Of a stretch of 64,000 bases of DNA, positions 1 through 52,245 are shown in pieces. The stretch is from assembly GCA_964035545.1 (NCBI GenBank), contig OZ037766.1, positions 31,813,773-31,877,772 on the forward strand. The letters are read 5' to 3'. How positions within the stretch are numbered: the stretch's first letter is position 1; each line of letters starts with the position of its first letter. Under the pieces are notes generated by a model that saw only the letters and a program-made list of their open reading frames with translations, was not told where the DNA came from and made no database searches. The position numbers were made by a program, and so were the translations under genes. Source of the stretch: Bugula neritina. Taxonomy: Eukaryota > Bryozoa > Gymnolaemata > Cheilostomatida > Bugulidae.

Positions 1-415
1 ATATCCTGTACTAGTATATCTACCTGTAAGTATATATCCTGTACTAATATATCTACCTGTAAGTATATATCCTGTACAAGTATATCTACCTGTAAGTATA
101 TATCCTGTACTAGTACATCTACCTGTAAGTATATATCCTGTACTAGTATATCTACCTGTAAGTATATATCCTGTACTAGTATATCTACCTGTAAGTATAT
201 ATCCTGTACTAGTATATCTACCTGTAAGTATATACCCTGTACTAGTATATCTACCTGTAAGTATATATCCTGTACTAGTATATCTACCTGTAAGTATATA
301 TCCTGTACTAGTATATCTACCTGTAAGTATATATCCTGTACTAGTATATCTACCTGTAAGTATATATCCTGTACAAGTAAGTCTACCTGTAAGTATATAT
401 CCTGTACTAGTATAT
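1..415 (-). repeat. 31-bp minisatellite, PANK4 intron 5
   Basis: About 13 tandem copies of a 31-bp unit, continuing off the left edge. Read in gene orientation every unit contains ACTTACAG|GTAGAT, an acceptor-like YAG followed directly by a donor-like GT. The next PANK4 exon is out of the window, so I cannot see whether the unit copies a real junction. Confidence 0.9.
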
Positions 416-3106
416 CTACCTTCAAGTCACCAGAGATAAAAACAAAAGTATTTAACAAGCGTTCAGATTGTTGTAAACTTAGACCAGAGTATAGAAAAGG
501 TTCTCTCTCCATCATGAGGACCAGTAAACTCCTTCAGTATTGAGTTATAGCTGTAATTTAGACATTGTTGTCATTCAACTATTTTGAACCAATATGAGCA
601 AATTTTAAAGTATTACATTTTTGTGGTTTCCAGCGGCAGCGAGTTTGATAAGGTCATCAAACTCGCTGACACCTGTCAGCAGCGAGCCGAGACCCCAGAA
701 TGTGCCGCCACCCATACTTGTACCGCTGACCCTGGAGTAGGAAGTCTCGGATTCAACCTGCAAAACAAGCAAACCGTTAGCAAACAGATACATGTGTCTG
801 TACACAATATGTATATAGTGACAGGACTAGCAGGTGTCTGTACACAACATGTATATAGTGACAGGACTAGCAGGTGTCTGTACACAACATGAATAGAGTG
901 ACAGGACTAGCAGGTGTCTGTACACAGCAGGTATAGAGTGTCAGTACTAGCAGGTGTCTGTACACAACATGTATAGAGTGACAGGACTAGCAGGTGTCTG
1001 TACACAATATGTATAGAGTGACAGGACTAGCTAGCCTTGAGTATGCTGACGCCGGAGCCAATGTTGACAAGCATGTAGGGGAAGATATCGGAAGCGCTGG
1101 GTAGAAACTTGTACTCGCTAGTGCCGGGCTGGGGCTTCTGCTGGTAGACAAATGACTCATCGGGAATACATCTGAGCAGGAAGTTACACCCCTTCACCAG
1201 GCAGTCCATCTCATCCTCTTTATCAATTCTGCAACATGTAAAGATATTTCTATTTATCAACAAATTTTCAAAACAGCACCTCTATAATTTGCTTCTACTT
1301 TCAGGTATTGAAAACTTATAAAACAGACAAGAAAATACATTTTGAGATAGTTCAATTCGCTGCAACTCGAAGGTATTCAAAAGTTCTAGCTTTTCACATT
1401 CGCCATCAACTAAACCTGACATGCAAGTTGCTGTAATTGACAGTCATGTATAGGATTTTAGAGGATATGTAGATCTTTCTTTCAGTTCAGCTGTCAATAT
1501 AAAGAGATAGTAATTCTCCTGCCACCAACGATCATGATGCTGCTTGACCATCCAGCAGAACACAACACGGGTCACGGCAGCACCTTCACCCCCTTTGCTC
1601 CCTCCACCCCCTCTACCCCCTATACTCCTTCCACCCCTGACAGCCACAAGTAACTGTAAAACTGCACAGCCCAGAAGTATAGACTTACTGGCACCCCAGT
1701 TTGCTTGTGATCAACTCTTTATACTTGAAAGCCCCTCCGCCCGTGATTTTCACCGTCTTTCCCATCAGTCTATCCGGCTGATGACGCAGAAGGTTCTGCT
1801 GCACGAAGTTGAGACAAGAACTGATATATTTCGTCTCAAACTTCACAAAGTTTAGCATCTCTACTTCTTTGTCAGTTTCTGTTATGTTATATATACTCTG
1901 TAACAAGCCAACAGCTAATATTAGTAAGCACTGAATAAGATAGTACTAACTAACAGTGGAAATTAGTAACAACTGACAATAGTGAGTATGGAGTGACTCA
2001 ATAACTGTTGAAATTAGTAAATACTGTGGTTATTACTTGAAACACAGCCCTCACTAGGAGACTAGGAGATAGCATTTACTTACTAACAGTATAGTTGTAT
2101 TTTAGCTCTAGTTCCTTTTCAATTACACATAGCTCAAGTATAGTCTGAGAGTCTGCTTAATGCAAAGTGAGCTAGGATTGTGAGGCTAGGATAAAGAGGC
2201 TAAGAGAGTTGGAATGAGATAGCTAGGGGTAAGATAACAGGGGGTGAGAAAGTAGGGGGATATGTGAACAGGGGGTGAGAGAGTAGGGGGATATGTGAAC
2301 AGGGGGTGAGAGAGTAGGGGGATATGTGAACAGGGGGTGAGAGAGTAGGAGGTAAGAGAACAGGGTGAGAGAGCAGGGGGATACGTGAACAGGGGGTGAG
2401 AGAGTAGAGGGTAAGAGAACAGGGGGTGAGAGAGTAGGGGGATACGTGAACAGGGGGTGAGAGAGTAGGGGGTGAGAGAACAGGGGGTGAGCGAGTAGGG
2501 GGATACGTGAACAGGGGGCTAAAAATGAGTGCAAGTAGAGATGGTTCACAGTCACTGCTATTTGACAAACTTTACAGCTTATGATGAAAAAATAACTTTC
2601 ACTTCAGAATTTTCTAGACATATATATTAAAAATATAGAGTATGAAGTACGAATTAAATTGCAATCCCAAAACATGTAACACCATGCTATGTACTACAAG
2701 CTTGTACTAACAAGCCCAGGCTAGATTGAAAGTTAAAGGTAAAGGCTACAGTTGGATAAAGGAAGTATTTTACAATATAAAAACTGCTCGTACTTGTGCA
2801 GCTGTACCCTCAGAAACCTTGGTAGACCTTTGCTTGCTCGTGGTACAATAAGCAAGTTTAGCGAGCGAACCACCTACAAGGAATCAAAGAAAAGAGAAAG
2901 TTAATATGACTTTGTTATTAAAATTGAGTGGTTTTATAATTTCAAGCAGTGATATAAATGAAGATGAATGAGTAGTACCGCAACTCACCAATGTCAAGGG
3001 CAAATCTCCGAGCTGTTTTGACATTTTGTAGTAAATCAGGCAGTTCCAGGGCTTTTGCGTATTCCGATGTTACATCACCAGCCGCCAGTGACTCATCAGA
3101 AGCCAT
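1..3106 (-). CDS. PANK4: PANK4-like pantothenate kinase family protein, 5' part (exons 1-5)
   Basis: Exons read on the minus strand: 3106-2989, 2873-2808, 1878-1689, 1228-1036, 757-617; the gene runs off the left edge. Phases join without a stop to give 236 residues. Start is the ATG at 3106 ([10 protein letters not shown]). Recognisable pantothenate kinase blocks in order: [13 protein letters not shown] (nucleotide-binding start), [57 protein letters not shown] and [18 protein letters not shown]. The [10 protein letters not shown] block and TFWGLG are typical of PANK4 rather than PANK1-3. In PANK4 proteins this domain is followed by a DUF89 phosphatase domain that would lie outside the window. 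Family role: CoA metabolism, as 4'-phosphopantetheine phosphatase in mammals. Intron 4 is a GC-AG intron. Exon 2/3 joining (donor at 2807) was chosen by phase and is the least certain junction. Confidence 0.88.
800..1034 (-). repeat. 40-bp minisatellite, PANK4 intron 4
   Basis: About six copies of a 40-bp unit (plus-strand core GTGTCTGTACACAACATG). It starts four to five bases inside the intron, directly behind the GC donor of exon 4 at 1035, so the intron is nearly all repeat up to base 800. Confidence 0.88.
1229..1688 (-). other. PANK4 intron 3 with purine/pyrimidine tract
   Basis: Intron of 460 bases between exons 3 and 4. Around 1585-1640 the plus strand is a long C/T-rich tract (CCCCTCTACCCCCTATACTC), so the transcript strand is G/A-rich there. 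No coding or RNA gene was seen in it. Confidence 0.6.
2217..2520 (-). repeat. 32-bp minisatellite, PANK4 intron 2
   Basis: About nine to ten copies of a roughly 32-bp unit (plus core GGGGGTGAGAGAGTAGGG). On the transcript strand the unit is pyrimidine-rich (CCCTACTCTCTCACCCC). It lies in mid-intron, about 340 bases from the acceptor of exon 3, so it does not copy a splice site. Confidence 0.88.
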
Positions 3107-5029: not shown

Positions 5030-5035
5030 TTTATT
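5030..5035 (-). terminator. poly(A) signal of the USP9X-like gene
   Basis: AATAAA on the minus strand (TTTATT on plus), 73 bases after the stop codon ending at 5108. Position is right for a 3' UTR end; use is inferred. Confidence 0.6.
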
Positions 5036-5107
5036 GTCGGCAATGAATAAGAATAGCTGCCGGTCTGCTAGTAGATATCTCCTAGAAGCCGCAGCGCTGC
5101 TGGATCT

Positions 5108-8100
5108 TCACTTCTCTACTTCAGTCTTTTTATCCAATACAGGTGAAGAGCTGGTATTCTCAGGAGAGCTACTGGCTGGTGATTTGTTAGTTGTCGTAGC
5201 AGTCACGCCCTCCCCAGCCACGCCCTCTCTAGCCACGCCCTCTCTAGCCACGCCCTCCCTAGGACTGTTATCTGCTAAGCTGGTAGAAGACTCAATATGG
5301 TGAGTATTGTCATTTTCTACGGAGTCGTCGTCCATATCATTGATAGATAGGTCTGCCCCTTCTCCATTATCCTACAACAGGTAACAGGATATGATGTATT
5401 GCAGTGCTCACGCAGGACACATAGCCCTGTCGATTTAGCAGCAAAGGGGCAGAAACCCTCTAAAGGCAGGATACCGTGACTAATGTCTAAACAACATTCT
5501 CAATTAACAGTAAAAGAGTTGAGCACAAACTCTAGAAAGGTGGTACATAGCAGACTGCAATGATATCTTCAGAGAACTAGCTAACGCCACAGACCTCTTC
5601 AGGGCACAGCTCCAAAGCTTTAGCCAGACACATCTTTGCACTCTGAGAACGCTCCAAAAAGTAGCCATTTGATGCTTCGTTTGACTGTACAGGCGGAGTC
5701 CAGTTGTTGTATGAATATTGGCTGCTGGCCCCACCATAGTTCCCTCTCTACCAATCAGATGACAGCTGACATCACATGTATTTCAGCAGCAACCAATTAC
5801 GTAAAAGATAATAGAGAATATTGTTAAGGAGTAGCCAATCAGATGCAATCAAACAAGGCATTTATAACGTAGCTGACATAGTTGATTAATTAAAATAGCA
5901 GTAGAATAGTAGAATAGTAATAGTATAGCAGTAGTATAGCAGTATATTAGCACTCACTCTCTCCATCTCTTCATTGAGCCACTCCACAGCTGTTATCCAC
6001 CTGTCCATCATATGACGTTCACTGTTGAGTAACTTGTTAGCCAGCTCACACCTATTATACCGTATATTCAACATGATTATACCGTATACTCAACATGATA
6101 ATACCGTATACTCAACATAATTATACCGTATGTACATATATATTACCTGGAGAAAAGATTGGTGAGCATTTTGATGCACTGATATGCTCTCTTCTGGTAA
6201 TTGCTCTTAGACTTAAGGATGATGTCAAACAGAGCCTCTTTGTCGTCGTTGAACCCCATGAGTGTGTTGATGATGCGGTTGGTCTGCCAACTGTCTTCCA
6301 GCAGCAGCAGCAGGAGCAGCAGGTCGAGGTACGGCCTCATCTCGTACGTGTAGATGTACGTCACCTGCCAGAGTAGCTCACTGAGCAGCTCGGCGCTGAA
6401 CTTGGCATTCTCGTAGCTGAGGTAGAGCAGCAGCTGTTTGGTGTCCTCCTGCGCCACGTTCTCCTCCACAATCTTCTTGATGAACGCGCGGTTCTTAAAG
6501 AGCAGAGCGGAGACGTTGGACTGGAGAGGGTAGAGCTGCTGGTTAGCAATTGCGTACGGGTTGGGTGCCATCGGCTGACCCTCCTAACAACAGGAATCAC
6601 TCGCTTATATGTGAATCACATGACATACGCAGAAATACTGCCAATAATAACAATTTTCTTGTATGAGTTTATGTGAGAACACAATGTGAGACTCATGCTA
6701 CAGGATAACATGGTAGGGTGGGGGAAGTGAGGTACGCGTACCTGTGTTTTACACTCAGAGGAGAGATCACAGCACCTGACCAGCACCGACACAACAGAGA
6801 AAAGCTTCACCAACTCCGCATACTGGTACTTGATGGATGGGCCGGGCCCGTCGTCTATAGATACTTGTATGAAGGTTCCCAGCACGTTCAGGGACAGGAG
6901 TTGTCTTCTCTGTAAGTAGTATATATACTCCAGCATAAGGGCAGACAACTTCACTTAGTCATGCTATACTGAAAGATAGACCATATCAACTAGGCTGACA
7001 ACACACATTAGTTGCTGGTATACAAGATGTACTTCTACAGAGTCTGTAAGAAGACATGAAGAGAGTGAGTGAGTCATACCTCCTCCGCGCCCAAGTTGGC
7101 GTACATGAGGAAGAGGTGGAAATACTGAGCAATATGGCGGCCATGTTCCGGCACTTCTTTTCGAAGAAGAGCTAAGACTGCCATGATGAGGTGGTCACTC
7201 AGTCCTTTCCCGTGTTCACTGATGTCAGTGTCCCCTGGGAAAACAATTTACATGAGTTAGTAGAGGAGACAACTACAATACTAGTAATATTGAGTAGAGG
7301 AGACAACTACAACACTAGTTATACTGAGTAGAGGAGACAACTACAATACTAGTAATATTGAGTAGAGGAGACAACTACAACACTAGTTATACTGAGTAGA
7401 GGAGACAACTACAATACTAGTAATATTGAGTAGAGGAGACAACTACAACACTAGTTATACTGAGTAGAGGAGACAACTACAACACTAGTTATACTGAGTA
7501 GAGGAGACAACTACAACACTAGTTATACTGAGTAGAGGAGACAACTACAACACTAGTTATACTGAGTAGAGGAGACAACTGATAGTAAAAACTTGATACT
7601 GATTTTATGGCCATGAAAACATACCATAGAGGTTAAGGTTAGGGGGTGGAGAACAAGCCCCGTCTCCTTTAGATATGTGGGCTAGTAAGGCTATGATCTT
7701 AGCAAATGTGACTCGAACCTGCAATGAGAAAAATAGTACTTTACCACAACTATCACTAGAGTACTGTGTGTGAATTGTCAGCTGGTGTAATGGGGCAAAA
7801 TTTTCCATAAAAAATAAATTTAAACCCAACTTATTTTCATCTGCATTGAAAACAAATTAAATTTCAAGTGAACAAGATAAAATAGTCTGCCACACACAGT
7901 GCACTATGCTATATAATAAAATGTAATACAAGTGTGTACATAGCTTGAAGTTGTAACTTTGTGTGTTTATAGGTCATACCTCGGAACTTGTTGATTCGAG
8001 CAAATATTCTGAAAATCTCTGAGGATGAGAGAAGAGAACGTTCTTGGCAAACCAACTACGAATTTTATCACTAGTCCTGAAGTGATTACTGAGTATTTCG

Positions 8101-11100
8101 TACCACTCAGATGCAGGACCTCTGTAATATCGTAATATATTACATTATATTATAATATTAAAATAGTATATTATATTGCTGTATAATATAATAACATATT
8201 ACAAAGTAACATAGACCAGTGAACATTGGTCTAGACTCTAGTGTAACATGACATGTCAGGTGTTACCTCAACGTTTTCTTAGTATGAAATCCAACAGAGA
8301 AGAGAAACTCAGACGCCAGACGCACACTGATGAAGGCTAAATGTACGAGGTGCTCAGGCTAAAACATTCACAATGTACTATATTTAACAATATAAGGTAT
8401 ATATGGTATATGGTATGAACACACTGCATAAGGTATATATGGTATATAGTATGAACACACTGCATAAGGTATATATAGTATATAGTATGAAGACACTGTA
8501 TAAGGTATATATGGTATATAGTATGAACACACTGCATAGGATACAATATAGTAGGAGCAGAAGACTCACCATATCACTATAACTTTGGTGCTGCTGTATA
8601 TAGTCTATCACAGCCGGTATATTACAGTTTATCAACTTCTTCATGAACTGGAAATGCTCCGGACAAAACCTGTTCTTATTATGCAGGAAGTCCAGGTTCT
8701 GCTTTCGGACAATTCTCTCGATGGCTACGGGAATTGTGGGCGCCTCCTTCTTATTGGCTGTAAACAACGCATGACTCATCACAGCACGACTCAGCACAAA
8801 AGCACACTAAATATTTGTTGATGAATATAAGCATATAGACTTCTATATAAGAAATAGAAGCGTACATGAAACTAATACTGACAATGTTCTAAGAATGCCC
8901 ATTCAGTAACTATAAATTTTATATAAGAAAAAAAAGTGTCAATAAACATACAGGCTTCTCAAGAGAATGAGCAGTATTGTATATATACGAGGTAGGGTTA
9001 CCTTAACATATGCATGATGCATACCTAAGACCTATCAAACTGCACATTATTCAACTCATAAAATGTTTTACAGATAAATTCACACTAAGAGCCTTTTACC
9101 CCTCCCCACCCCGTCACACTGTTGCAAAGTATCTTCTCACAACTCGTTGAAAAGAATAAGGATACTAATGGCCAATTTACAATAAGAAAGAGAAACCACA
9201 GCAAATTAACTATAACATGGGGTTTATGTAATCCCCAAAGGAAATGGTAGAGGTGTGAGAGTTACCCAAGTATAGCTCGTCAATGCCCTTAGAGATGTCA
9301 TCAACGCTTTTCTCCTTCTCTACAGAATCATCTCGCCCGCCTTCCTTATCAGTTTCCGTGCTGGGAATTCTCTCGTAGATGAGGATGTATGCATTCCACC
9401 ACCTCTTCTGGCGTCTGTACGACATTCTAAAAAGAGAGGAATGGACGGCGTATTTACTTCTAGTAGTGAGATAGTACATACCAGTAGATAGCAGAATGAC
9501 ATACTCATATACATGCTCACCTTTTCAACATGTGGTCAAACACTTCTCCCGTGTACTCCCCGCCAAAACACTCCTTCTTCAACTCCTCGTCGTCGTCCAT
9601 TCTGCATTCCGAGACATCCCCGTCATCAAAACGATACCACCTGCTCACACAACAGGAAGTGTGTCACACAACAGGAAGTATGTCACACAACAGGAAGTGT
9701 GTCACACAATAGTAAGTGTGTCACACAATAGTAAGTGTGTCACACAACAGGAAGTGTGTCACACAAGAGTAAGTGTGTCACACAGGAGTAAGTATGTCAC
9801 ACAAGAACCAGAATATTTCCCAAGATAACATTGGTCATATCATTTTCTTGACAAATAACACTCCCAGATTATACTGAAATATAATATATCAATATATAAC
9901 ATACTAGAAGACACTCTTACTTGGTGCAGTCTGGAGAGGAGGGATCTGAATGTTTGATGAAGGAGTAATAGTGACCTCCACTAGCCTGACCACTGTGCAC
10001 TACGATGCCGGTCAGTTGGTACTGGGTCTCTTGGGCAGCGTACGACTTCTCTTCATCGTCCACCCACTTCTCCCCTGTGACACACAACTACCTGTCTACA
10101 CCACTGATACACTACCTGTCTACACCACTGATACACTACCTGTCTACACCACTGATACACTACCTGTCTACACCACTAATACACTACCTGTATATAACAC
10201 TGATACACTACCTGTATATAACACTGATACCTGTATATAACACTGATACACTACCTGTATATAACACTGATACACTACCTGTATATAACACTGATACACT
10301 ACCTGTTTATAACACTGATACACTACCTGTATATAACACTGATACACTACCTGTATATAACACTCATACACTACCTGTATATAACACTCATACACTACCT
10401 GTATATAACACTGATACACTACCTGTATATAACACTCATACACTACCTGTATATAACACTGATACACTACCTGTATATAACACTGATACACTACCTGTAT
10501 ATAACACTGATACACTACCTGTATATAACACTGATACACTACCTGTATATAACACTCATACACTACCTGTATATAACACTGATACACTACCTGTATATAA
10601 CACTGATACACTACCTGTATATAACACTGATACACTACCTGTATATAACACTGATACACTACCTGTATATAACACTGATACACTACCTGTATATAACACT
10701 CATACACTACCTGTATATAACACTCATACACTACCTGTATATAACACTCATACACTACCTGTATATAACACAAGGTAACATGTTTGTGATGTCATCTATT
10801 AACCTACCTTCCATCTTGGCTAGACCGTATACAGTGTACGGCTCCATGTCTATCTGCCTGGGAAACTCAAAGTAATCATTAAACTTTATGGGGCACTCCC
10901 TCTCCCAGTCGTAGTCAAATCTTTTCAGTTGTATAGCTAGGATCTTGGGCAATTTCTTGACACACATACGCTTGACAGTGTCGACCTAATGTGAGAGAAG
11001 CAGTAATATTATATACATAGTAATATTATATACATAGTAATACTACAGACATAGTAATATTATATACATAGTAATAATATTATATACATAGTAATATTAT

Positions 11101-14100
11101 ATACATAGTAATATTATATACACAGTAATATTATATACATAGTAATATCATATACATAGTAATATACACTAATATTATATACATAGTAATATTATATACA
11201 TAGTAATAGACATAATATTATATACATAGTACTAGTCTTACCTTTTTACCACATCTCTCACAGAAGTAGGCGTTGGCACCTTCCAGCAGGTCCCCTTTCA
11301 CAGACTGCTCCAGGGACTCCTTGAGGTGTTGGTGGTTCCGGATCTCCAGGTTGAGGGTGGTGAAGGACTGCTCCTGGGAATACCTGCAATGAAGAGCAGC
11401 TCTAAATACTAGCAGCAGCATGTACCATGAAACATGTACCAGGTACCTGCTAATAGTGTCACCTGCTAAAGGTACGATAGGTAAAGGGAGAGAAAGAAAG
11501 AAGCTGACCTGTGGGGACAGTCTTTGCATATCTTCTGGTCGGCGTAAGACCCGCCCAACACCTGACTGCACAGCTGGTCTTTACCTAGAGCCTTCATTGC
11601 CTCGTCACACGAGTCTACGAGTCTACCGAAGAACTCGAGAGCATCGTGCTGCTCTCTCAGATTCACCTGTTCACCTTGTATCCTGTGAGACAGAGTAGCA
11701 AACAATAGTATACTAGTACCTACAGTATACAAGTACCTACAGTATACAAGTACCTACAGTATACTAGTACCTACAGTATACAAGTACCTACAGTATACAA
11801 GTACCTACAGTATACAAGTACCTACAGTATACTAGTACCTACAGTATACAAGTACCTACAGTATACAAGTACCTACAGTATACTAGTACCTACAGTATAC
11901 AAGTACCTACAGTATACAAGTACCTACAGTATACAAGTACCTACAGTATACTAGTACCTACAGTATACAAGTACCTACAGTATACAAGTACCTACAGTAT
12001 ACAAGTACCTACAGTATACAAGTACCTACAGTATACTAGTACCTACAGTATACAAGTACCTACAGTATACAAGTACCTACAGTATACTAGTACCTATAGT
12101 ATACTAGTACCTACAGTATACAAGTACCTATAGTATACAAGTACCTACAGTATACTAGTACCTACAGTATACAAGTACCTACAGTATACAATAGTATACT
12201 AGTACCTATAGTATACAAGTACCTATAGTATACAAGTACCTACAGTATACAAGTACCTACAGTATACAAGTACCTACAGTATACTAGTACCTACAGTATA
12301 CTAGTACCTACAGTATACAAGTACCTACAGTATACAATAGTATACTAGTACCTACAGTATACAAGTACCTATAGTATACAAGTACCTACAGTATACTAGT
12401 ACCTACAGTATACAAGTACCTACAGTATACAATAGTATACTAGTACCTACAGTATACAAGTACCTATAGTATACAAGTACCTACAGTATACTAGTACCTA
12501 CAGTATACAAGTACCTACAGTATACAAGTACCTACAGTATACAAGTACCTATAGTATACAAGTACCTACAGTATACAAGTACCTACAGTATACAAGTACC
12601 TACAGTATACAAGTACCTACAGTATACTAGTACCTACAGTATACAAGTACCTACAGTATACTAGTACCTACAGTATACAAGTACCTATAGTATACTAGTA
12701 CCTACAGTATACAACTACCTACAGTATACTAGTACCTACAGTATACAAGTACCTACAGTATACTAGTACCTACAGTATACAAGTACCTATAGTATACAAG
12801 TACCTACAGTATACAAGTACCTACAGTATACAAGTACCTACAGTATACTAGTACCTACAGTATACAAGTACCTACAGTATACTAGTACCTACAGTATACA
12901 AGTACCTATAGTATACTAGTACCTACAGTATACAACTACCTACAGTATACAACTACCTACAGTATACAAGTACCTACAGTATACAAGTAGGGCGACAAGT
13001 GAAATAAACTTGTTACCCGCCAACGCCACCAACTAAGTGACGTAGTGGCAGCAATACGTATGCAGGACGAGGCCCGACAGCGGCAACACTTACTTGAACT
13101 GTTTCCAGAAACCCTTGGGAGTATAGAACTGCGGCTTGCTACGAGCTAAATGAGCGAATATAATCTGCACTTGCTGGAGCACACCAAGATTGTACGCCTT
13201 TTCGCTGTCGTCCACAGAAGAGTTGTGGGAGGTGGAGGGTTCGAGAGAGTCATTAGCCTGTTTCTCCACTTCTATCACCTCACTGGTGGCGGGTGCAGGG
13301 TTGGGGTACAGCTTATCGTACTGCAAGAGTGTATTCAAAACTACATACCATTATCTAGTTAGCTGCAGTCAACTTCACTCAACTGATAGTCAACCTAGTT
13401 GTGAGTTGCGTCGCCTTTTCATTTTGCTTCAGCAACAAAAGTATATAATTAAGCTCATACAAGAGACAACAACTTACAATCTAAACTGTATGCAACTGCT
13501 GCTGTGACTACACACTTCTCAACTGAAGAAGTAGTTTAATATTATACATATTGTAGCCAAAAAGCACTAGTCTATAAATAGATCAAATTCTCTTCAACTA
13601 ACATTAGGAGGTTGGGCGTCCTTGACATCACCATCTTCTACGGCATCGTCAGCGATTCCCTCCAGACTGAGAATTCCGTCTCTTATCTCGGGGATCATAA
13701 ACAGCTGCTGCAGCACAGAGTTCATGTAGCAAGTAGCACCGCCGTTCTTTAGTCCCACAAATCCATGGGCAGGTCTCATGCCAACCGGGGGCAGGTACTC
13801 CCATTCAGACAACATGGAGTATTCGCCTGACAACCACATAACTGATGAGTAACTGACACATCACAGCAGGTGTTCTGACACATAACTAGTGAGTAACTGA
13901 CACATCACAGCAAGTGTTCTGACATATGACTAGTGAGTAACTGACACACCACAGCAGGTGTTCTGACATATAACTAGTGAGTAACTGACACACCACAGCA
14001 GGTGTTCTGACAACTAGTGAGTAACTGACACATAACAGCAGGTGTTCTGACACATCACAAAAGTAAATAAACCAGGTGGCTAATGTTACTCTCAATTAGT

Positions 14101-17100
14101 GTTCTGAAGGTAAAATAGAAACAATGAATTAATTGCATACAAACAGCAACTCAAAAGTTTCCAAGGAATTAATTATGAAATAAAGACACAGATGTTAGTT
14201 GGACAACTACTGAGGACAAATACTGGTAAGACAGACATACCGAAGTGGAACATGTTGCTAAGAGCACTGGATACCAGCTCCAGGTTCTGAATGCAGCCGG
14301 TACAGAGTGCCACTAGCAGGTCGTAGGCAGCGTTGATGGTGTTAGTTGATTGACAGATGGCGACTACGTGACCTTGGGTGATGTCAGAGAGACGACCTTC
14401 CCGCTTGTCTAGCAACACTTTACTAACAGGTAGAAGGAAGTCTTCCATTAGTTCCTGAAGAACAATGGCAAGAAGTAGAATAAGAGAGGTAGGAAGAGTG
14501 GTGAATGCAAGGCCAAGCACAATTAGTACAAGTGGGCAAAGTTACAAAGTACAGATAGCAGAAATTAGACACACAAATGAAGATGATAAAGTAACAAGCA
14601 GAATAGTAGTAGTAGAGTTGAGATACATAGTAATAGCAGTAGAGTTGAGATACATAGTAATAGTAGTAGTAGAGTTGAGATACATAGTAATAGTAGTGGT
14701 AGAGTTGAGATACTTAGTAATAGTAGTAGTAGAGTTGAGATACATAGTAATAGTAGTGGAGGTGAGATACATAGTAATAGTAGTGGAGGTGAGATCTGAT
14801 GGTAATGAAACAACTTACCTTAATCAAGTTATTACCAGCTGCATCAGACCCATATTTACACTTCTTTTCTGGATCAAGAGGAAGTATTAACTCACGGGCT
14901 ATACCCAGATGCCCCTCTAGAAGTATCTCATGAACTGTACTAGAACCTGAGTCTACAGTCAACTCCTGAAACCATTGAAAATGCCTTAAATTAATATACC
15001 TGCTGAGAGAATCTAGCGACATAAACCTCTGTGGAGCGTAGCACCTAGACATACCTGTATTTGCTGGTATTACATTACATTATATTTGATGAAGACAATA
15101 AAGATACAAAAATATACAGCAACTATAAGAGTACAACTGGGAGTGGATGCTACACAGCAGTATTATATACACAACTAAACTAGAGAGGTAAGGCATGGAG
15201 TGGCAGAGTTAATGGAGATGGAAAGTTTGCAGTTTGAAGAAGATTGTGGTAAAGCTAAAACAGGTGAGAGTGTCAGGTGAGAGTGACAGGTGAGTGACAG
15301 GCGAGAGTGACAGCTGACAAGTGAAAGTGACAGATGAGTGACAGGTGTGAGTGACAAGTGAGAGTGACAGGCGAGAGTGACAGTGAGTGACAAGTGAGTG
15401 ACAGGTGGCAGTGAGATAGATATGGGAGAGTGACAGGTGAGAGTGACAGCTGACAAGTGAGAGTGACAGATGAGTGACAGGTGTGAGTGACAGTGACAAG
15501 TGAGAGTGACAGCTGACAAGTGAGAGTGACAGGTGTGAGTGACAGGTGTGAGTGAGAGTGACAAGTGAGAGTGACAGGTGAGAGTGACAGTGAGTGTCAA
15601 GTGACTGACAGGTGGCAGTGAGATAGATATGAGAGAACAACATGAAGACTACTATCCCAGCATGGTGTAACAGTATAAACAGTATAGAAAAGGTGAAGCA
15701 ATAAGAAGCCTGTTGTTCACACATACCCTCGTCTTCTTCAGCCATTTTATCTCATTTGTCAGTCTATCCTCCCCTTTAGCCAGAGGTTGTTCCATCTGAG
15801 CCCAGTTGAGGAGGTGGCAGAGTAGACTGAAGTATTCAGCAGACTGGCTGGCATAGATGGGCACTTTGTCCTGTATGACAGTATTACATCATATAGACAA
15901 TGTATAAACCATATACAGCTTGTATAAACAATATACATACGGCCTACATAGTACAGACTGGCCTACAGGCCGCATATATAAACAATATGAACACACACAA
16001 AATTTATGGAGCAGCCATGGTCTAGGGGTTACAGCATTTGCCTAGTAAGCACGAAGTCATGGGTTCGAACCCCGACAGAGGCCATTGGTGAAGTTAGGAA
16101 GAGCATATTTTTAGTTAACAGTGAAGGTCATTCAATGAAGGTCATTCAAAGTAGCTTATAGTCTGAATGCACGACACTGCAGTAGACAAGTTCCTGAGAC
16201 TAAGCACTAAAGTTCAGTCAATACCCCCCTCTACCCAGACAATGTGAACACTGAAGAAGTACATGGACAATAAACTTGGTAGACAAACAGGAGGGCAAGA
16301 CTGTGCTCACCATTTCTATACAGAAGAGAAGAGTTATGAAGAAATTAGGCTTCACTCTCATCGCTATGAGTTGAAACTGTTCTCGGGCTGTGCTCCTCAC
16401 CAGCCTGTAATACAATACAGAAATCTGAGGCTAACAATATCAGAATTAGAGGATACACTGTGAATGTAACCTTGTTACTAATTGAACGACTCAGACTGTA
16501 TGATGCTCACCTATTTTTACATATTAGAATAGTATCTACTATAAACTCCTGCCACGTTTTATCCTTGTGTAGGTTGGAGAGAGTTTCGGGGTGAAGGATG
16601 AGACAAAGAGTGAGCACGTGCAGACCTACACAGGCTAGCTGTACGTCTGCCGAATCTTCATCTTCTTCGCAATCTTTAGACATCTACAGTACGTATAAAC
16701 CAGTACATACATTATATACTAGACATCTACAGTACATATAAACCAGTATATACGATATATACTAGACATCTACAGTACGTATAAACCAGTATATACAACA
16801 TATACTAGACATCTACAGTACATATAAACCAGTATATACAACATATAAACCAGTATATACAATATATACTAGATATATACATAATATATACTAGATACAT
16901 ACAATATATACTAGACATCTACAGTACGTATAAACCAGTATATACAATATATACTAGATACATATAATATATACTAGACATCTACAGTACGTATAAACCA
17001 GTACATACATTATATACTAGACATCTACAGTACGTATAAACCAGTATATACAACATATACTAGACATCTACAGTACGTATAAACCAATATATACAACATA

Positions 17101-34300: not shown

Positions 34301-34853
34301 TTATTCGCTGCATTTAATAATATGAAATTTTTGAAAAAAAAACATAAAATCATCAGCTCATTAGTTATCAATATATATTTGACGAATATCCTTAGGCTTA
34401 TGGCTATCATTCTGGCTATTAATTATTGCTAAAACTTCACTGCAAGTTGAATGCATCAAACTCTGTAATCATTATGTCCCTGTTAACTGTTTAGCGGCGT
34501 AATTTCTATATTGGCAAGTTTGATAATAGAGAAGACAACTCTTTAAACGCGAATGCTTTCACAAATTGTGGTGATGTGGCTTCCGCTTCTTTTACGGTCC
34601 CGGTCCTGAGTGCTCAAACTTGCACGTCGAACTTTGTCAAGGACATCAATCGTGCAGGGAAGCCGTTTAGCACTAGCAGCTCATTCAGTCATTGAATTGC
34701 TAGTGTATTTACTTTTTCTTAGCGGCAGCCCAGTAATTATTAACAATAACATTATACATATAGGTTGTTCATTTGAAAATTCTCAAAATTGTGGAGTGCA
34801 GGTATTTTAATTGAATATTTTTGAAAACATTGTAAATAAATATAACTTTACAA
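31376..34853. other. Divergent intergenic region between USP9X and PCCA
   Basis: 3.5 kb that must hold both promoters. Mostly AT-rich. It contains one tandem array (31868-32210) and, near 34560-34680, the only moderately GC-richer stretch (TTTTACGGTCCCGGTCCTG), a candidate PCCA start region. An unspliced 5' UTR exon there is possible but not shown. No transposon seen. Confidence 0.6.
31868..32210. repeat. 29-bp array with TGAGTCA sites in the USP9X/PCCA intergenic region
   Basis: About 12 copies; ten carry ACTGAGTCACAG, a palindromic TGAGTCA (AP-1/bZIP) core, and one has TAAGTCA. It sits about 0.5 kb upstream of the USP9X start codon and 2.7 kb upstream of PCCA. Regulatory use is inferred. 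Confidence 0.85.
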
Positions 34854-37800
34854 ATGGCAGCTAAAATACTGTCTTTTAAATCACTTCAAGTTCAACACTA
34901 CAGTAAAATGAAGTTCAACATCAACATGAATTTGAGACTAAAAAGACTCACAGTTGAAAGATCGACGCTATGTCTGCAATATCAACAGCCACAGATGTCA
35001 CCTGGTCTAGGTGTAAGTGTTAGCTTTTCCCATTGTTACCAACAGTAACTAAGTCTAATAACTTACAGTTATGAGTTACTTGAAGTGCACTGATGGTAAG
35101 CAATTTCAAATTTATCGTAATGATTATTATGTTATTATAAATTAATTTGACTCAGACTGTTACTGATCGTGATAGTCAATGTCATACTATCATCGGAGTT
35201 GTTGTTAGGATCAAGAGAAGATGAGCAAGTAAGACTAGTAAACAAAGTCAATAATTATAAATATAATCAATGATAATTGGATAAAAAGTTTAGATTGTCT
35301 GTTTTACTAAAGCTTAGCTTAGTTAGTGAAACTGCTCTTGCATTCAGAACATTTTGAGCATAAAGGGGCACAGAGTGAAATACTTTAAAGCTTAAACCTC
35401 TACTGCAATGTTATGATCAGGAGTAAGCAAAAGCAAAGCTGTATCACTGTACTGACTGCAAATAAATTAAAATGCTATTGAATTGAAGCATTATTATTAT
35501 TTGAAAATGAAATACAATACATTTTAATGCAAATTGTTAATTGTAGCCGTAAGTGACTCAAGACTATTGTTGAAAAAAATTGTCACCTATTCTGTTTGAT
35601 TATTGAACTCAGGTATAATTATTTGTAATTGTGTTTTAATTTATATAATTTTAAATATATATGTAGGTTAGATTACTATCTACATCAAAGTCTCTCGGTT
35701 TTATGGAGAAGCGATATTGGAACACCGTATTTAGTCAGTCTGAACCCGTAAGTATGTCTTAACTTTAGCAGATTTGCAATTTTTGTTACTTTTGATTGAG
35801 TTTCGATTTCTCATTAGTTGATTTGTAAAATTTCACATATGTAGTTTGACAATAACCAACTTTAACATTCACGTTGTTTGAGCTGATGAGTATAATATAT
35901 TTTTGTTCTAAAAATGTTTGACAGTACAAATGTTTCACTTAAAAATATCTTTCGTTTGAAAAATGCTAGTTACTTGTGGCTCTGTTTGACAGAAATTCAA
36001 CAAAGTTCTCATAGCCAACAGAGGTGAGATAGCATGTCGAGTCATTGAGACGTGCAGACATCTCGGTATCAAGTCGGTAGCCGTCTACAGTGAAGTAGAT
36101 TGTTTTGCTGTAAGTACAATTGGAGTTATCATTCTTATTGCATGTATATATTTACAGTTGCAGTTGTGGTTTCTATTGCCAGGCTTTGGTAATTTTCTTA
36201 AATCTAATAATTTTCCAAGTGTATACATGGCTTTGCTTGTTTTATTCTTTATTGTTTGTAGACTAGTAATTATTTGCCTTAAAATTAGAACTAATTGCAT
36301 GGTAATATCCTTTCGTTTTACAAATATGTAAATTATTGAATCTTATATATTAGTTTATAATTTGATTCGACTTTAGTATAATAAAGCATATTAAATGCTG
36401 TGTGGCTTAATAATAAGTAAGATGTGTCTTCTACTCACTTATATTTCTATATCATCTTTTCAAACAAAATTTATTATCTTCTACATTTTGCAAATCTTTT
36501 GACAAGATTTTCATCTAGACCAACATTATTGCAGCCTCACGTGCGATTGGCTGATGAAGCCGTGTGTATTGGGCCTGCTCCTTCTAGTCAGAGTTATCTC
36601 GTCATGGAGAATATTGTTGAAGCTGCCAAAAATACTGGCGCTGACGCAGTGAGTACGCTTATATGTTTCTAAATTGCATGTTTGTTCCCATGATTGTAGA
36701 AATTTGAGATCTACAAAACCAACGGAGGGAATATTGCTAATATACAGTAAATCAGTGCAAGTTTGTTCGATCTAGTATTTGAATAATCAAATTCTAGTCT
36801 GTAGTTTTAGCTTTCACTGCAAATATGAATTCAACATAGAGCTTCTACCGCCCCTTGTAAGATACTCTATTCTATGAATATGTTCTGTCTGTGTGTCTCC
36901 AGGTTCATCCGGGGTACGGGTTTCTCTCCGAGAACATGGACTTTGCAGCCAAGTTGGTGAGTTGCGTTATTTGCAGTTGTCTTCTCCTTAGTATTACACT
37001 ATAATTATTGTGATTATCTCTTCCTGAAATTAAACTATTTTGTTGTTATCTCCTCTTGAGATGACATATTGCTGTTGCTTTGTGTTGGCTCCTTATTCTT
37101 TACACTCAACTTTCATGTAATAAATTTCACTTCTCTGTGATGGATGATCTAAATGTTAGCCTGTTTCTCTTACTCGTAGACTGAGAACAACATTGTGTTT
37201 GTGGGGCCCAACAGTCGGGCTATCCACATGTTGGGGGATAAGATAGAGAGCAAGCGGATAGCTAAAGAGGCTAATGTCAGCATTGTGCCCGGCTTCGACG
37301 GGGAAGTGCAGACAGGTGATGATGCAGTCCGGATAGCCAATGAAATCGGTTAGTCACACACTTTATAATATATTATACTATATTACATGTTATACTGTCT
37401 TGTGTATTATATTATCTTATATATTATACTATATTATATGTTATACTGTCTTGTGTATTATATTATCTTATATATTATACTATATTACATGTTATACTGT
37501 CTTGTGTATTATATTATCTTATATATTATACTATATTATATGTTATACTGTCTTGTGTATTATATTATCTTATATATTATACTATATTATATGTTATACT
37601 GTCTTATGTATTATATTATCTTATATATTGTACTATATTATATTATAAAATTACTATGTCTGGTGAGAAATCTAACATATTGTTGCACGAGAAGTTTTCT
37701 GCGAATGTTGAGAGTTGTGTCCTATGTTTATTCCTGCATGGACATTACTCGGCATTGCCAAGTTGATCTCATCTCCCTAAGTCAACCTGTTGGTGTCTTC

Positions 37801-40800
37801 ACTGTGTATCACGTCTCCTGTGTGCCACCTACACAGGTTACCCGGTGATGATAAAGGCGTCGGCTGGAGGCGGAGGCAAGGGAATGAGAATTGCCTGGAA
37901 CGACGATGAGACAAGGCAAGGTTTCCGGCTCAGCAAGAACGAAGCCAAGTCAAGTTTTGGAGATGATCGTATGCTGATAGAGAAGTATATAGACAAGCCA
38001 AGGCATATCGAGTTTCAGGTATATTAATGTCCTGTGAATTAGATGTGTAAGAGGTAGATCTCCTACAGTTCAACATCTGCACTTTGTTTAACATGCAAAT
38101 GTTAGCAACGCTTACAGTTTACATTAAAAATAAGTATTTATCTGTTTACTACTTTTTTCTATCAAAGTTGATTAATATTTCTAATATCACTGTATTCATC
38201 TTAAGATGAATGCACTGGTGTCTGAAATATTAGTTTACTTTAATAAATAAAGTAGTCAACAAATAGAATGTTTTCCCTTTCACTTAATGTAATTAAATTG
38301 ATAGCCCCTACAGATACAGTTGCAATGTGTACTTATGATTTGTGAAGGTAATGTGTGACCAGCACGGCAATGCCATCTACCTGAATGAGAGAGAGTGCTC
38401 AATACAAAGACGCAATCAGAAAGTCATTGAGGAGGCCCCTAGCACCTTCCTCGACCCAGAAACTAGAGCTGCAATGGGAACACAGGCTACAGACCTTGCA
38501 AGAGCTGTAGGCTACGACTCCGCAGGTTGGTCAGCTCATTGTAAAGTGTAACTTCATGTAACTCTTTGCTACTCTGTCTGTTAGGTATTATATACTCTTT
38601 GTTACTCTGTCTGGTAGGTAGTATATACTCTTTGCTACTCTGTCTGCTAGTTATATACTCTTTGTTACTCTGTCTGGTAGGTATTATATACTCTTTGTTA
38701 CTCTGTCTGGTAGGTAGTATATACTCTTTGTTACTCTGTCTGGTAGGTAGTGTATACTCTTTGTTACTCTGTCTGGTAGGTAGTATATACTCTTTGTTAC
38801 TCTGTCTGGTAGGTATTATATACTCTTTGTTACTCTGTCTGGTAGATATTATATACTCTTTGTTACTCTGTCTGGTAGGTAGTGTATACTCTTTGTTACT
38901 CTGTCTGGTAGGTATTATATACTCTTTGTTACTCTGTCCGGTAGGTAGTATATACTCTTTGTTACTCTGTCTGGTTGGTATTATATACTCTTTGTTACTC
39001 TGTCTGGTTGGTATTATATACTCTTTGTTACTCTGTATGGTAGGTATTATATACTCTTTGTTACTCTGTCTGGTAGGTATTATATACTCTTTGCTACTCT
39101 GTCTGGTAGGTATTATATACTCTTTGCTACTCTGTCTGGTAGGTATTATATACTCTTTGTTACTCTGTCTGGTAGGTATTATATACTCTTTGCTACTCTG
39201 TCTGGTAGGTACCGTAGAGTTTCTCATCGACTCTGAGCGGAACTTCTACTTCCTGGAGATGAACACCAGACTTCAAGTGGAACATCCAATCACAGAGATG
39301 ATAACAGGGGTAGACTTAGTCCACCAAATGTTGCGGGTAGCCAAGGGTCACCCTCTCACACACACTCAGCAGGATATTGGTAGGTTCTAGACTTCTGGCT
39401 AGTGCTCTGTTTACACGCTGCCGCTACAGTTGCTGCCAACAGCTACTCTCAAATTACCTGCTGACTTGTAGGTATAACTGGCTGGGCCGTGGAGTGCAGA
39501 GTCTACGCTGAAGATCCATTCAAGGGGTTTGGTTTACCCAGCGTCGGTCGTCTGAACAAGTACAAGGAACCCACACATGTATCTGACAAGGTATACCTCA
39601 GCTCTATCCTACACTATCCTATACTATCCTACACTACGACATTACTCACCACATTATATCTCTTTTTTTACCCTGGTGCATTCAGCAGTTCCTAAATTGT
39701 GTAAACTTTAATGCAAGAGTTTTAACATTAGCATAAGACATTGACTTTCTTTCCTTCCTATTTTCAATATCTGTGCCTTTCAAGTAAACTGTAGCAGCCT
39801 GTATTATAATGGCACTTGTTTGCTGACGCTGTGGTCATGTTTCAGATACGTTGTGACAGCGGAGTGGAGGAAGGAAGTGAGATCAGTGTGTATTATGACT
39901 CCATGATCTGCAAGGTAATGTCCTCCAACTGTAAAGTCTCTTTCACTGAGCTCTTTGTTAAGTGTTGATTATTTCTAGTTTTCTTTTCAATTAGAGGTTT
40001 TATTGACAGTGTTTTTTTTTCTAAATAATCAAACCACTTTTTATGATTTTCAACTTTATGTGTAACGTATTGAAGTCATTATGAAGCAGAGTGTGAAAAT
40101 AGCAGAGTGTAACTCCGTAGTCTTAGCTGCACCTTGCAGTACTTATGTTCCTCCAACATTCACCTCTAACCACCTGTTTCCAGCTGATCACCCACGGCCA
40201 GGACAGGCAGGATGCTCTCGATACGATGTCAGACGCTCTAGACCAGTACGAGATTCGAGGCGTGACTCATAACATTCCGTTGCTGCGGGACATTGTTCAA
40301 GAGGAACGGTTCAAAGCTGGGGACACAACTACCAACTACCTCGCAGAAGTCTACCCTGAGGGCTTTAAGGGTAGGACATCATCTTATGTTGAGTTATCTA
40401 TGGCCACGTCATGCTTCACAGCTCTTTGCATGGAGTTGTCTGTTCATTTTAGAATCCTTTTGAGTTTTGGTATATTGCCTTTGCCCATACTCTGATAGAA
40501 ATAACTTTTTATTTGTGAAATTTCACCGCATGAGGATGTCCTATGCTAATAATGGTGGTGTTGAATAGCAGTAAAACCAAAGTTGACACGCCTATACTTA
40601 CACCTGGACAGAGTAAATGTTTGTATTCTTTCCTAGGTAAACAGTTAAACAGCTCCGAAGCTATGCAATTAGCTGCCATGGCTGCTTGTGTTAGATATAA
40701 ACAGGATGTGAGGTCATCATCTTTCCTCAACAACACCAGGTATTTCAACACGTGTAAACTTAATCTAACAGTTGAGAGTGAGGCTCCCTAAATTGTCACA

Positions 40801-43747
40801 CAAAAACTAGGTTTCCAAATCAATGAGCATGTTTACCAAGGATGCTTATCAACTGTGCTGTGGACTTTGTACATAGATATTGTAATTGTAAAGTAACCTT
40901 GTCTAAATGTTTAGTCTTTCTTTCCCTTAGAATCAAATCATCGGCGAGTTTGCCATCCAAACAGACATTCAGAGTTGACATTGAAGGTAGCGACAGTTTT
41001 GATGTGAGCTTATCGTCGGAGAATGAGAACTTCCAAGTAAGCTGATGGTCATAGCAATAATAGTGTACACTCGTGGAGACAACAGTCATTGGTTGGTTTA
41101 AAAGCAGGTCAAAATAAAGCTGGATGTTTCTCCAGTTTTTTTTTTAGGTTTTATATAAAACTTACTTTGACTGAAGTGAGGTATAATAATATGTAAAAGT
41201 TGCTGGCTTTCAAAAGTCTGCTTGTTTTGCTATTTGTTCACTTATTAGAAACACAGTTTTCATGCATCACATCCACTTATTGTGTTTGTATCCTACTATG
41301 ACACAGGTCAAAGCAATTCTTTATTGTATCACTGTGTAAAACTTACCTCATGTGAATATGAAATTTATTCTTTGTGAATTGTACATGTTAATCAAAGTTT
41401 GTATATGCACACACCATTTTCAACAATAGAAGTCTTTGTGAATGCGTAAAAATAAAGGAAATATAGATGCCTTTAGTTGAACAGTCTCTTACATATTTCA
41501 GGTTATGATTGGAGAGGAACATTTGAAGGTCACGGACAACTTCAACCTTTCTCAGTCGGTTTTATCTCCGCAAATCTCTGGAGACACGACTCACTTCCAG
41601 GTACCCTTCTATCCTCTTTAATACTCACTTCCAGGTACCCTTCTATCCTCTCTAATACTCAATTCCAGGTACCCTTCTATCCTCTCTAATACTCAATTCC
41701 AGGTACCCTTCTATCCTCTTTAATACTCACTTCCAGGTACCTTTCTATCCCCTCTAATACTCACTTCCAGGTACCCTTCTATCCTCTCTAATACTCACTT
41801 CCAGGTACCCTTCTATCCTCTTTAATACTCACTTCCAGGTACCCTTCTATCCTCTCTAATACTCAATTCCAGGTACCCTTCTATCCTCTCTAATACTCAA
41901 TTCCAGGTACCCTTCTATCCTCTCTAATATTAACTTCCAGGTACCCTTCTATCCTCTTTATTACTCACTTCCAGGTACCCTTCTATCCTCTTTATTACTC
42001 ACTTCCAGGTACCCTTCTATCCTCTTTAGTATCAATATCCTCTTTATATGCATCTATCCTCTCAATGCTCTCTTGTATCTAGTTTATAAGTACATCTATG
42101 TTATGTATATCTATTCTACAGTTACTTGTATATATCTATGTTATGTATATCTATTCTACAGCTACTTGTATATATCTATGTTATGTGTATATATTCTACA
42201 GTTACTTGTATATATCTATGTTATGTATATCTATTCTACAGCTACTTGACAGTTCACCTACAGGACACATCAAGTTCAGATATTTTGGCACCGTGGTGAG
42301 TAATTCTCTTTCTACTGTCCATATTTATACCCATTTGTACCCACTTCTACACGCACTAGTCAGTATTTCACAATATGTAGTGGTGTATTTATATAAAAAC
42401 CCACGCAAGTCTACAGTCACCACCCTTGTGAGAAACCCCTAATGGATAGAGTGTTTTGTTCTTTCAAACTAATAATATATTCAGATGGGGCACTTATGAC
42501 TGGATGCTCTTCCTAACGTCACCAATGGCCTTTGTCAGGGTTTGAACCCATGACTTCGTGTTTACTAAGCAAATGCTCTAACCTCTAGACCATGGCTGCT
42601 CCCTTATTTATATATACCAGCTAATATTACACAGTGTGTATATCCGCTAAGCTAGCTGGCTTGCCTTAGGTGATGTTATCTTATGTAATCTGTCTTGCAG
42701 TTTGATGTGTCAGTGCTGACCCAAGATTTTGCTGCCATGAGTCAGTACATGAAGGAAAAGGTTGTTCCTGATTTTAGTGGAGTCGTTGTTGCTCCTATGC
42801 CTGGGATTGTGAAGTCGGTTGCCGTTAGTGTTGGAGACATGGTGAGAACTCCTCCTTCCTGGATGTAGAAATTAGGCTAAGATAGCATAAACTTATTTCA
42901 GGAATTCATTTGAAAAACAAGTTTTGTAAAAGCTAAAACAGATTCATTTTGTTTGTTGCTGTATTCAAGGAAAGTGAAATTTATGACATGTTGAGTTATT
43001 GTTTTGAGTGCTTGATCATTTTTATTGAAAATAAAAGATTTTGTGTGATTTAAAATATACAAAAACTGCATTAAATAACTCACACAGTGATAGTCATTTA
43101 ATCACATATCATCACACCTTTTATTGACTGTATCATGTTCTGTGACATGTAACTGCAGGTGTCTGAAGTGACAGTCATGTGATGACGTATCATTTTATTG
43201 ACTGTACCATGTTCTGTGGCATGTCACTGCGGGTGTCTGAAGTGACAGTCATGTGATGACGTATCATTTTATTTACTGTACCATATTCTGTGACATGTCA
43301 CTGCAGGTGTCTGAAGGTTCTGAAGTCTGTGTATTAGAAGCAATGAAAATGCAGAACAGTCTCACAGCCAGTAAAACAGCAAAGGTAAGATTTACTTGAT
43401 GTTTCGTAAAAATTATGTGTATGGGCAGGCATCTAAAGCATCTGCCTATGCAATTAGTGGCCATTTTTCCTGACGAGTTGTAGTTTTCAAGAAGGGAGTG
43501 TGTTGTACTGTTGAGCTAAATTAGGAGTTATCTCACTAGTTACTGTTCTATGTTCTTTTAGCCTAGCGTCTGCTGAGCTAGTTATTTTGGTACCAGTTGT
43601 GTGCTTATGAACTCAAAACTCCATCTCAAGGTGCATGCAACTCATATCTTGCAAATTGTTGGTCTCTAGGTTAAGAAAGTCAACTTCAAGGCTGGCGACA
43701 CTGTTGGGGAAAGTGATGTGATTGTAGAGCTCGAAGATCTTAGCTAA
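34854..43747 (+). CDS. PCCA: Propionyl-CoA carboxylase alpha subunit, mitochondrial
   Basis: Nineteen exons: 34854-35012, 35667-35747, 35993-36109, 36535-36648, 36903-36956, 37180-37348, 37837-38018, 38348-38525, 39209-39379, 39472-39590, 39846-39914, 40184-40370, 40637-40739, 40931-41036, 41502-41600, 42242-42295, 42701-42841, 43307-43384, 43670-43747. Phases join into 752 residues (human 728). Blocks: [59 protein letters not shown] (ATP-grasp loop), [40 protein letters not shown], and the biotinyl motif EAMKMQN with its lysine in exon 18. It carboxylates propionyl-CoA with the beta subunit in the matrix. The basic leader fits mitochondrial import, but exon 1 (ATG 34854) is the least certain. 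Exon 8 uses an unusual AAG acceptor. Confidence 0.93.
37355..37645 (+). repeat. About 54-bp AT-rich array, PCCA intron 6
   Basis: Five copies containing TATACTGTCTTGTGTATTAT, starting about 15 bases behind the exon 6 donor (ATCG|GTTAGT). Confidence 0.88.
38566..39210 (+). repeat. 33-bp array copying the acceptor of PCCA exon 9 (intron 8)
   Basis: Nineteen upstream copies plus the real site. Unit core TACTCTGTCTGGTAG|GTATT; real junction TACTCTGTCTGGTAG|GTACC. Seventeen copies keep AG; two read GGTTGG. Period is 33 (one copy 30), so all are in phase with exon 9 and the array is open in that frame. Confidence 0.95.
41592..42030 (+). repeat. 34-bp array copying the donor of PCCA exon 15 (5' end of intron 15)
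   Basis: Real exon end plus 12 copies of CACTTCCAG|GTACCCTTC (CAATTCCAG in some). Each unit repeats the last nine exon bases and the 5' splice site. TTCTATCCTCTCTAATACTC precedes the AG in each unit, so each could also look like an acceptor. Confidence 0.95.
42085..42249 (+). repeat. 38-bp array copying the acceptor of PCCA exon 16 (3' end of intron 15)
   Basis: Three copies plus the real site: TCTATTCTACAG|CTACTTG, with CTACTTG being the first seven bases of exon 16 (TTACTTG in two copies). Confidence 0.93.
42486..42603 (-). mobile_element. tRNA-derived SINE, copy 2 (PCCA intron 16)
   Basis: Reverse-strand copy of the element at 16009: A box TGGTCTAGAGG, B box GGTTCAAACCC, tail GGCCATTGGTGACGTTAGGA. 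Antisense within the host intron, as is copy 1. Confidence 0.85.
43095..43316 (+). repeat. 74-bp triplication spanning the acceptor of PCCA exon 18
   Basis: GTGTCTGAAG, the start of exon 18, occurs at 43159, 43233 and 43307, exactly 74 bases apart. Copy 1 keeps ACTGCAG|GTGTCTGAAG; copy 2 has lost the AG (ACTGCGG|G); copy 3 is the real exon. The ten shared exon bases show the duplicated block crossed the splice junction. Confidence 0.93.
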
Positions 43748-52154: not shown

Positions 52155-52245
52155 ACTGTTAGTAAACCACCATGTTATAAATAAGTAATTTATACAAACT
52201 TTGTGTTGAAGACAATAATTATTGCTAATATAAGAATATTCTGTA

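Follow-up and report, generated by a model that had tools for sequence, protein, structure and literature searches.

The stretch of DNA considered here, hereafter the window, comprises 64,000 nucleotides (nt) of chromosome 2 of the bryozoan Bugula neritina (C2:31813773-31877772; genome size 215.8 Mb), with a chromosome end ∼1.7 Mb away. Spliced protein–DNA alignment places three genes in it, PANK, USP9X and PCCA, and their introns carry tandem arrays of short repeat units (minisatellites), some of which run across a splice junction, such that the unit contains the adjacent exon–intron boundary. PANK is present in part (1..3004, minus strand), runs on to the left of the window, and was modeled by spliced alignment with a human PANK sequence. 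The USP9X coding span, which lacks the N-terminal part, covers 5594..30416 on the minus strand; 45 of 47 aligned introns were kept, and the translation (2392 amino acids) is in frame with no stops. Array bases make up 50% of intron DNA in this gene, compared to 0.1% of exon DNA. The aligned part of the PCCA coding span (35996..43735, plus strand) has 16 introns (31% array), and PCCA as spliced from the window is 98% identical to the GenBank entry ‘PCCA [Bugula neritina]’.

Exon–intron structures were derived from human proteins aligned to genomic DNA with a purpose-written spliced aligner that accepts GT (or GC, with a penalty) as donor and AG as acceptor. The sample consists of 14 genes on chromosomes 1–5, which gave 284 introns of ≥45 nt, shorter ones being excluded. 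Gene choice was non-random, favoring conserved, well-known genes; UBA1, ATP1A1, POLR2A, COPA, SF3B3 and KPNB1 are not part of the set. In the USP9X model, a 36-nt alignment intron was removed, a 38-nt one was fused with its neighbor, and two donors were shifted. For PANK, four of nine aligned introns were retained and the exon models are incomplete, and uncertain junctions remain elsewhere in the gene models (e.g. the last USP9X introns). The translated PCCA, CAND1 and USP9X models contain no stops. At the protein level, the exon joins of a B. neritina PCCA protein (P0001) match our model at 15 of 16 introns, the sole mismatch being the array-free intron 40371-40636. The annotated protein has seven added residues here, VGHYLML, whereas the homologous join gives none; these may stem from misannotation or from use of another donor. 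Annotated B. neritina PCCA (AUGUSTUS with transcriptome hints) also shows, again at the protein level, the expected joins at the three PCCA introns with junction-crossing arrays. A B. neritina USP9X protein was sought in the same manner, by words and by score from residues 1150–1290, and none of 77 candidates reached 1e-50.

Arrays were called with Tandem Repeats Finder (TRF; period ≥7, score ≥50, rows with period <7 excluded), yielding 82 minisatellite arrays in 72 of the 284 introns. By TRF edges, 12 of these arrays, in 11 introns, extend 2–42 bases into an exon, at six donors and six acceptors, and exon bases are absent from the other 70. Four crossings lie on the plus strand in PCCA. A 34-bp × 12.9 array (41589..42025) and a 40-bp × 3.9 array (42094..42248) cross the donor and the acceptor, respectively, of intron 41601-42241, with 12 and 7 exon bases; a 74-bp × 2.7 array (43119..43316) crosses the acceptor of intron 42842-43306 with 10; and a 33-bp × 19.8 array (38561..39211) reaches 3 bases past the acceptor of intron 38526-39208. 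On the minus strand, a 43/129-bp array (16677..18590) in USP9X intron 18921-16684 crosses the acceptor and takes in 7 exon bases, and a 16-bp × 17.6 array (29530..29811) begins on the donor of USP9X intron 29809-29154 with 2. The two crossings with 2 and 3 exon bases are weak. In PANK, a 33-bp array (1..421, minus strand), which runs on to the left of the window, crosses an acceptor at window position -141 by 27 bases, and another array crosses a donor with 8 exon bases. The remaining crossings are found in CLTC (donor, 15 exon bases), XPO1 (acceptor, 7) and CAND1 (two donors, 9 and 42), the CAND1 array with 42 exon bases being a duplication of 1.9 copies. Units of crossing arrays span 16–129 bp, and the exon part accounts for under half of the unit in 10 of the 12. 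These data, drawn from 14 genes, confirm the original prediction that repeat units can carry the adjacent junction.

Several other USP9X arrays on the minus strand lie close to junctions or inside introns. A 21-bp array (19416..19725) has its edge 10 nt from the acceptor at 19406 and bears a degenerate likeness to that junction, a 44-bp array (13835..14055) ends 8 nt from the acceptor at 13827, and a 17-bp × 76.7 array (11707..12989) sits inside intron 13093-11683. A 24-bp array (10087..10771) was considered as a crossing and ruled out, as an in-frame GTAGGT donor, probably the one used, is found at 10807 and puts the array 36 nt inside the intron.

To gauge likeness independently of array edges, we compared each unit with its own junction and with the junctions of other introns (81 of 82 arrays; GT–AG introns only), using a window of 14 bases for the junction and 10 bases for the exon alone. 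The original prediction had named seven junction-spanning arrays in USP9X and PCCA, by intron numbers that fit our model with an apparent offset of +1 (USP9X) and +2 (PCCA). Four of these are solid, each matching its own junction at 14/14 positions (p = 0.004): the PCCA 15 donor (array 41589-42025), PCCA 15 acceptor (42094-42248), PCCA 17 acceptor (43119-43316) and USP9X 24 acceptor (16677-18590). With exon bases alone, the PCCA 15 donor and PCCA 17 acceptor remain significant (both 10/10, p = 0.004), whereas the PCCA 15 and USP9X 24 acceptors do not (7/10, p = 0.14 and 0.18), because their units contain just 7 exon bases. Two more are weak, namely the PCCA 8 acceptor (38561-39211) and the USP9X 22 acceptor (19416-19725, which stops 10 nt before the exon). 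Both match their junction at 11/14 positions (p = 0.007); with exon bases alone, the values are p = 0.47 for PCCA 8 and 8/10, p = 0.011, for USP9X 22. The last, USP9X 29 (13835-14055), shows no support for a junction copy (7/14, p = 0.90). The array that begins on a USP9X donor, 29530-29811, likewise lacks significant likeness to its own junction (p = 0.55).

Over all arrays tested, own-junction likeness at p ≤ 0.01 was seen on the sense strand for 5 of 81 donors and 8 of 81 acceptors, compared to 0 and 2 on the antisense strand. For exon-only windows, the corresponding counts were 5 and 2 versus 0 and 0. Junction copies are thus nearly confined to transcript orientation, much as had been proposed. 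No likeness to its own junctions is seen for the median array (p 0.58–0.66, sense), and units that carry a junction are therefore a minority feature.

Crossing arrays produce ladders of additional splice sites, another element of the original prediction that our counts bear out. In the 12 crossing arrays, the extra GT or AG dinucleotides are intact in 104 of 110 cases. This value, 95%, is the one expected from the identity of other unit sites (0.976 squared), and the extra dinucleotides are therefore homogenized along with the unit, neither protected nor worn away. In the USP9X array at 29530-29811, the consensus is a strong donor, and GT is kept in 17 of 17 extra copies.

Arrays can occupy nearly all of an intron. 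If each array is reduced to one unit, 15 of the 72 introns with arrays come to <69 nt, a length below which only 1 of the 284 introns falls; in these filled introns, arrays have replaced unique intron sequence. Exons are largely free of arrays, the array fraction of exon DNA being 0.000–0.018 in 13 of 14 genes (0.186 in PANK, where exon models are incomplete). Array load differs strongly among genes (chi-square 74.8, 13 degrees of freedom, p = 1e-10), and the farther a region is from the chromosome end, the smaller its share of introns with arrays (Spearman -0.87, p = 0.0005, 11 regions). At <3 Mb from an end, 57 of 117 introns contain arrays, compared to 15 of 167 at >4 Mb, although this cut was picked post hoc. 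Flanking DNA does not follow the introns. Flanks are poorer in arrays than introns for array-rich genes (e.g. CAND1, 0.11 versus 0.62; XPO1, 0.07 versus 0.51) and richer for array-poor genes such as EEF2 and SMC3 (0.04–0.10 versus 0). EEF2 occurs as two neighboring genes with matching intron positions (C1:24537585-24543471 and 24560794-24567496), and the introns of neither contain a minisatellite array. These data point to distance to the chromosome end as a main factor behind intron filling.

Where do the units come from? Four were searched genome-wide. The 34-bp unit that crosses the PCCA donor has 12 matches at ≤3 mismatches, all in its own intron, and was born locally, a conclusion that holds for this one crossing unit. 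For the 17-bp USP9X unit (11707-12989), 67 of 71 dimer matches are in its own intron and 4 are on chromosome 3. At ≤1 mismatch, the 23-bp XPO1 unit has 82 matches, every one of them within XPO1, where they share one orientation and occupy two introns that are not neighbors (C3:10411336-10411622 and 10413760-10415975). The 14-bp CAND1 unit occupies two CAND1 introns (C5, ∼1.04 Mb) in opposite orientations and belongs to a dispersed family (744 dimer matches at ≤1 mismatch); among the matches listed, all eight exact-match loci on chromosomes 1 and 2 are within 2 Mb of an end. When all 82 units were intercompared, 19 pairs from different introns matched at E ≤ 0.01, over 12–46 bases among the 15 pairs listed. 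Introner-like sharing of units among introns of many genes was not seen in this comparison, the CAND1 unit being the exception. One speculative idea, to which we give a low probability, is that in subtelomeric genes minisatellites come to occupy entire introns along with their splice signals, and copy between introns of one gene; XPO1 itself is not subtelomeric. If true, intron-to-intron homogenization or transfer would rewrite introns and give junctions redundant sites. We view gene-private units common to separate introns as the part of these results most worth pursuing.

The original prediction presented arrays seeded on junctions as a pattern not previously known. This is not the case. Two papers (PMC3087553, PMC3902484) describe ‘mirage’ minisatellites in amphioxus, in Adh3, the globins BflGb6 and BflGb9, TnC and PGBD5, in which the repeat unit spans the exon–intron boundary at donors and acceptors, AG or GT is present in many but not all copies, and splicing is reported to be regular. 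Mirage units are 10–72 and 150–160 bp long, and their mechanism is called unclear there, with a model of intron gain suggested (PMC3087553). The arrays of Bugula are alike in their boundary-spanning units (12 of 82 arrays), in their occurrence at both 5′ and 3′ boundaries, and in the presence of AG or GT in most extra copies. They differ in belonging to another phylum, Bryozoa; in affecting 11 of 284 introns, amid 70 non-crossing arrays, with units of 16–129 bp; and in a load that increases towards chromosome ends. Length instability, including somatic instability, is a further trait of mirages; for Bugula, the analysis covered one haplotype.

Subtelomeric minisatellites are known from human genetics. 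The Bugula arrays resemble them in the higher load near chromosome ends and in the 14-bp family within 2 Mb of ends, but unlike them sit in, and fill, introns of conserved genes. A further comparison is intron gain by tandem genomic duplication (the AGGT model), discussed in PMC3087553. Here too a tandem duplication includes a splice motif, but in Bugula the duplicated part is mostly intron, and no new intron has been demonstrated. Our literature search, which left subscription literature largely uncovered, found no junction-spanning minisatellites outside amphioxus, and the word ‘intron’ is absent from the accessible portions of the Bugula and Flustra genome papers. Junction-crossing minisatellites are thus likely new for Bryozoa.

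The explanation that we favor, and consider reasonably probable, is that these are mirage-type minisatellites in the subtelomeric part of a bryozoan chromosome, grown within introns with a mild bias to intron ends, and that crossings are tolerated. Short tandem duplications would start in introns and spread with a mild preference for their ends. Slippage or unequal exchange would then lengthen the arrays, especially towards chromosome ends, to the point where many abut exons, which would halt further spread. Where the founding segment happened to overlap a splice junction, a few exon bases would come to be present in every unit. Such arrays could persist as nearly neutral elements, since the exon-touching copy would retain the original junction and presumably be the one used in the animal, while the other copies would be intronic and removed.

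The original prediction went further, casting splice junctions as hotspots of tandem duplication. In this alternative, which we think rather unlikely, R-loops or breaks coupled to splicing, for example, would make junctions or intron ends mutational hotspots, and introns would lengthen from their ends outward. To evaluate placement, we used a null in which arrays fall uniformly in the array-free part of each intron, with exon entry allowed by 0–30 nt according to tolerance. Twelve crossings were observed, versus 10.7, 17.2, 22.1 and 32.0 expected at tolerances of 5, 10, 15 and 30 nt, and hence the 82 arrays show no excess of crossings over uniform placement at any of the four. The ratio of crossings to uniform seeding is 0.46–0.65, and crossings stay below expectation when any one of the 11 array-bearing genes is omitted (tolerance ≤15 nt). 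Among arrays of ≤3.2 copies (n = 31), there are 4 crossings versus 5.0 expected, and in introns with ≥150 nt of array-free sequence 4 versus 2.2–3.1. With a null confined to the intron, which permits no crossing, non-crossing edges also fall as expected (0–9 nt, 28 versus 27.7; 10–24 nt, 31 versus 29.6).

A number of observations nonetheless run counter to the explanation we favor, several of them in the direction of a hotspot. Counting crossings, 71 edges of arrays fall within 25 nt of a splice junction, versus 57.3–58.7 expected (P 0.0002–0.0012 across all tolerances), and it follows that seeding or growth is not fully uniform. This excess stems mostly from arrays of >3.2 copies (53 versus 43–45), but shorter arrays lean the same way (18 versus 12.5–14.6, P 0.01–0.10). 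Crossing arrays, moreover, are longer than others (302 versus 137 bp, p = 0.01) and have longer units (33 versus 21, p = 0.01). Of 33 arrays whose introns leave ≥150 nt array-free, 14 are within 25 nt of a junction versus 5.9–8.4 expected (P 0.0005–0.02, tolerances 0–15), and a pilot with 53 arrays agrees (41 versus 28.3–30.8). Within 10 nt, the 40 edges observed exceed expectation clearly only at the tightest tolerance (31.7, P = 0.015; 34.4, 0.09; 36.8, 0.24; 42.6, 0.79, for 5, 10, 15 and 30 nt). Overall, the end excess is ∼1.2-fold, and growth up to an exon barrier would also yield it, an effect that cannot be separated from end-preferring seeding. Intron ends are thus mildly favored by arrays, with no peak of crossings at the junction itself; the data are not cleanly described either by edges no closer to junctions than random or by junction likeness at control level. 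Also at odds with the favored explanation, XPO1 bears a 2.25-kb array although it lies 10.4 Mb from an end, and tolerance of extra splice sites appears incomplete. In the 70 non-crossing arrays, the sense strand scores lower than the antisense for splice motifs, both donor (p = 0.03) and acceptor (p = 0.006), and the sense deficit holds against tandemized random unique intron sequence (donor, P = 0.02; acceptor, P < 1 in 300), suggesting some cost to additional splice sites. On the other hand, the two strands do not differ significantly when all 82 arrays are taken together (donor, p 0.17; acceptor, 0.12), and for 44 interior arrays they do so only for acceptors (p 0.04). Strong acceptors in the 70 arrays number 6 sense versus 4 antisense, and the antisense donor score is itself above its tandemized control (1.36 versus -0.44).

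A further possibility, which we regard as very improbable, is that copies of splice sites are retained as functional, redundant sites buffering or regulating splicing. The 104 intact dinucleotides would fit this idea, but homogenization alone predicts 0.95 intact. Strong donors occur in just 2 of the 70 non-crossing units on the sense strand (9 antisense), and strong acceptors in 6 (4 antisense), while unit lengths show no clear preference for multiples of three (remainders: 32, 22 and 28 of 82). Only slightly less improbable is that array introns are recent introns, born by tandem duplication of exon segments containing AGGT. The 15 introns that are nearly all array are compatible with such births, as is the 1.9-copy CAND1 duplication with its 42 exon bases. 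However, crossing units generally hold less exon than intron, and the 70 arrays without exon bases do not conform. Could the crossings instead be artefacts of assembly or of wrongly placed exon ends? Repeats are difficult to assemble, exon ends depend on remote homology, and one apparent crossing vanished once the better donor at 10807 was found. Against this, the published assembly tzBugNeri2.1 is built from long reads with a quality value (QV) of 53.7 (PMC11480708). Copies deviate from the consensus in 11 of the 12 crossing arrays (identity 0.92–0.99), and the PCCA junctions are corroborated by a protein from a second, independent assembly. We therefore consider an artefact highly unlikely.

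Other features were noted in the window and genome. Positions 44000-64000 of the window contain three C-type lectin exons (Pfam Lectin_C; open reading frames at 46466, 51891 and 61218), apparently repeated gene copies, together with a reverse transcriptase open reading frame (52234-52905) and two stretches of a 62-bp minisatellite (55547-55912, 62518-63076). Elsewhere in the assembly, small contigs (e.g. C29, C52, C81, C85, C104, C126, C177, C186, C210 and C243) align with conserved proteins across numerous in-frame TAA/TAG codons. These contigs are probably a contaminant with a non-standard genetic code, our guess being a ciliate or the like.

Taken at its proper size, this is a real but modest result, in which a minisatellite type already described turns up in a further phylum, and a strong junction hotspot is unsupported. 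Junctions need not be unusually mutable for crossing to occur, even if arrays slightly prefer intron ends. The results extend mirage minisatellites from amphioxus to a lophotrochozoan phylum and attach numbers to them, for exon reach and for the intactness of splice sites. In Bugula, ladders of near-identical splice sites stand beside the real one, and they offer ready-made constructs with which to study spliceosome choice between equivalent sites.

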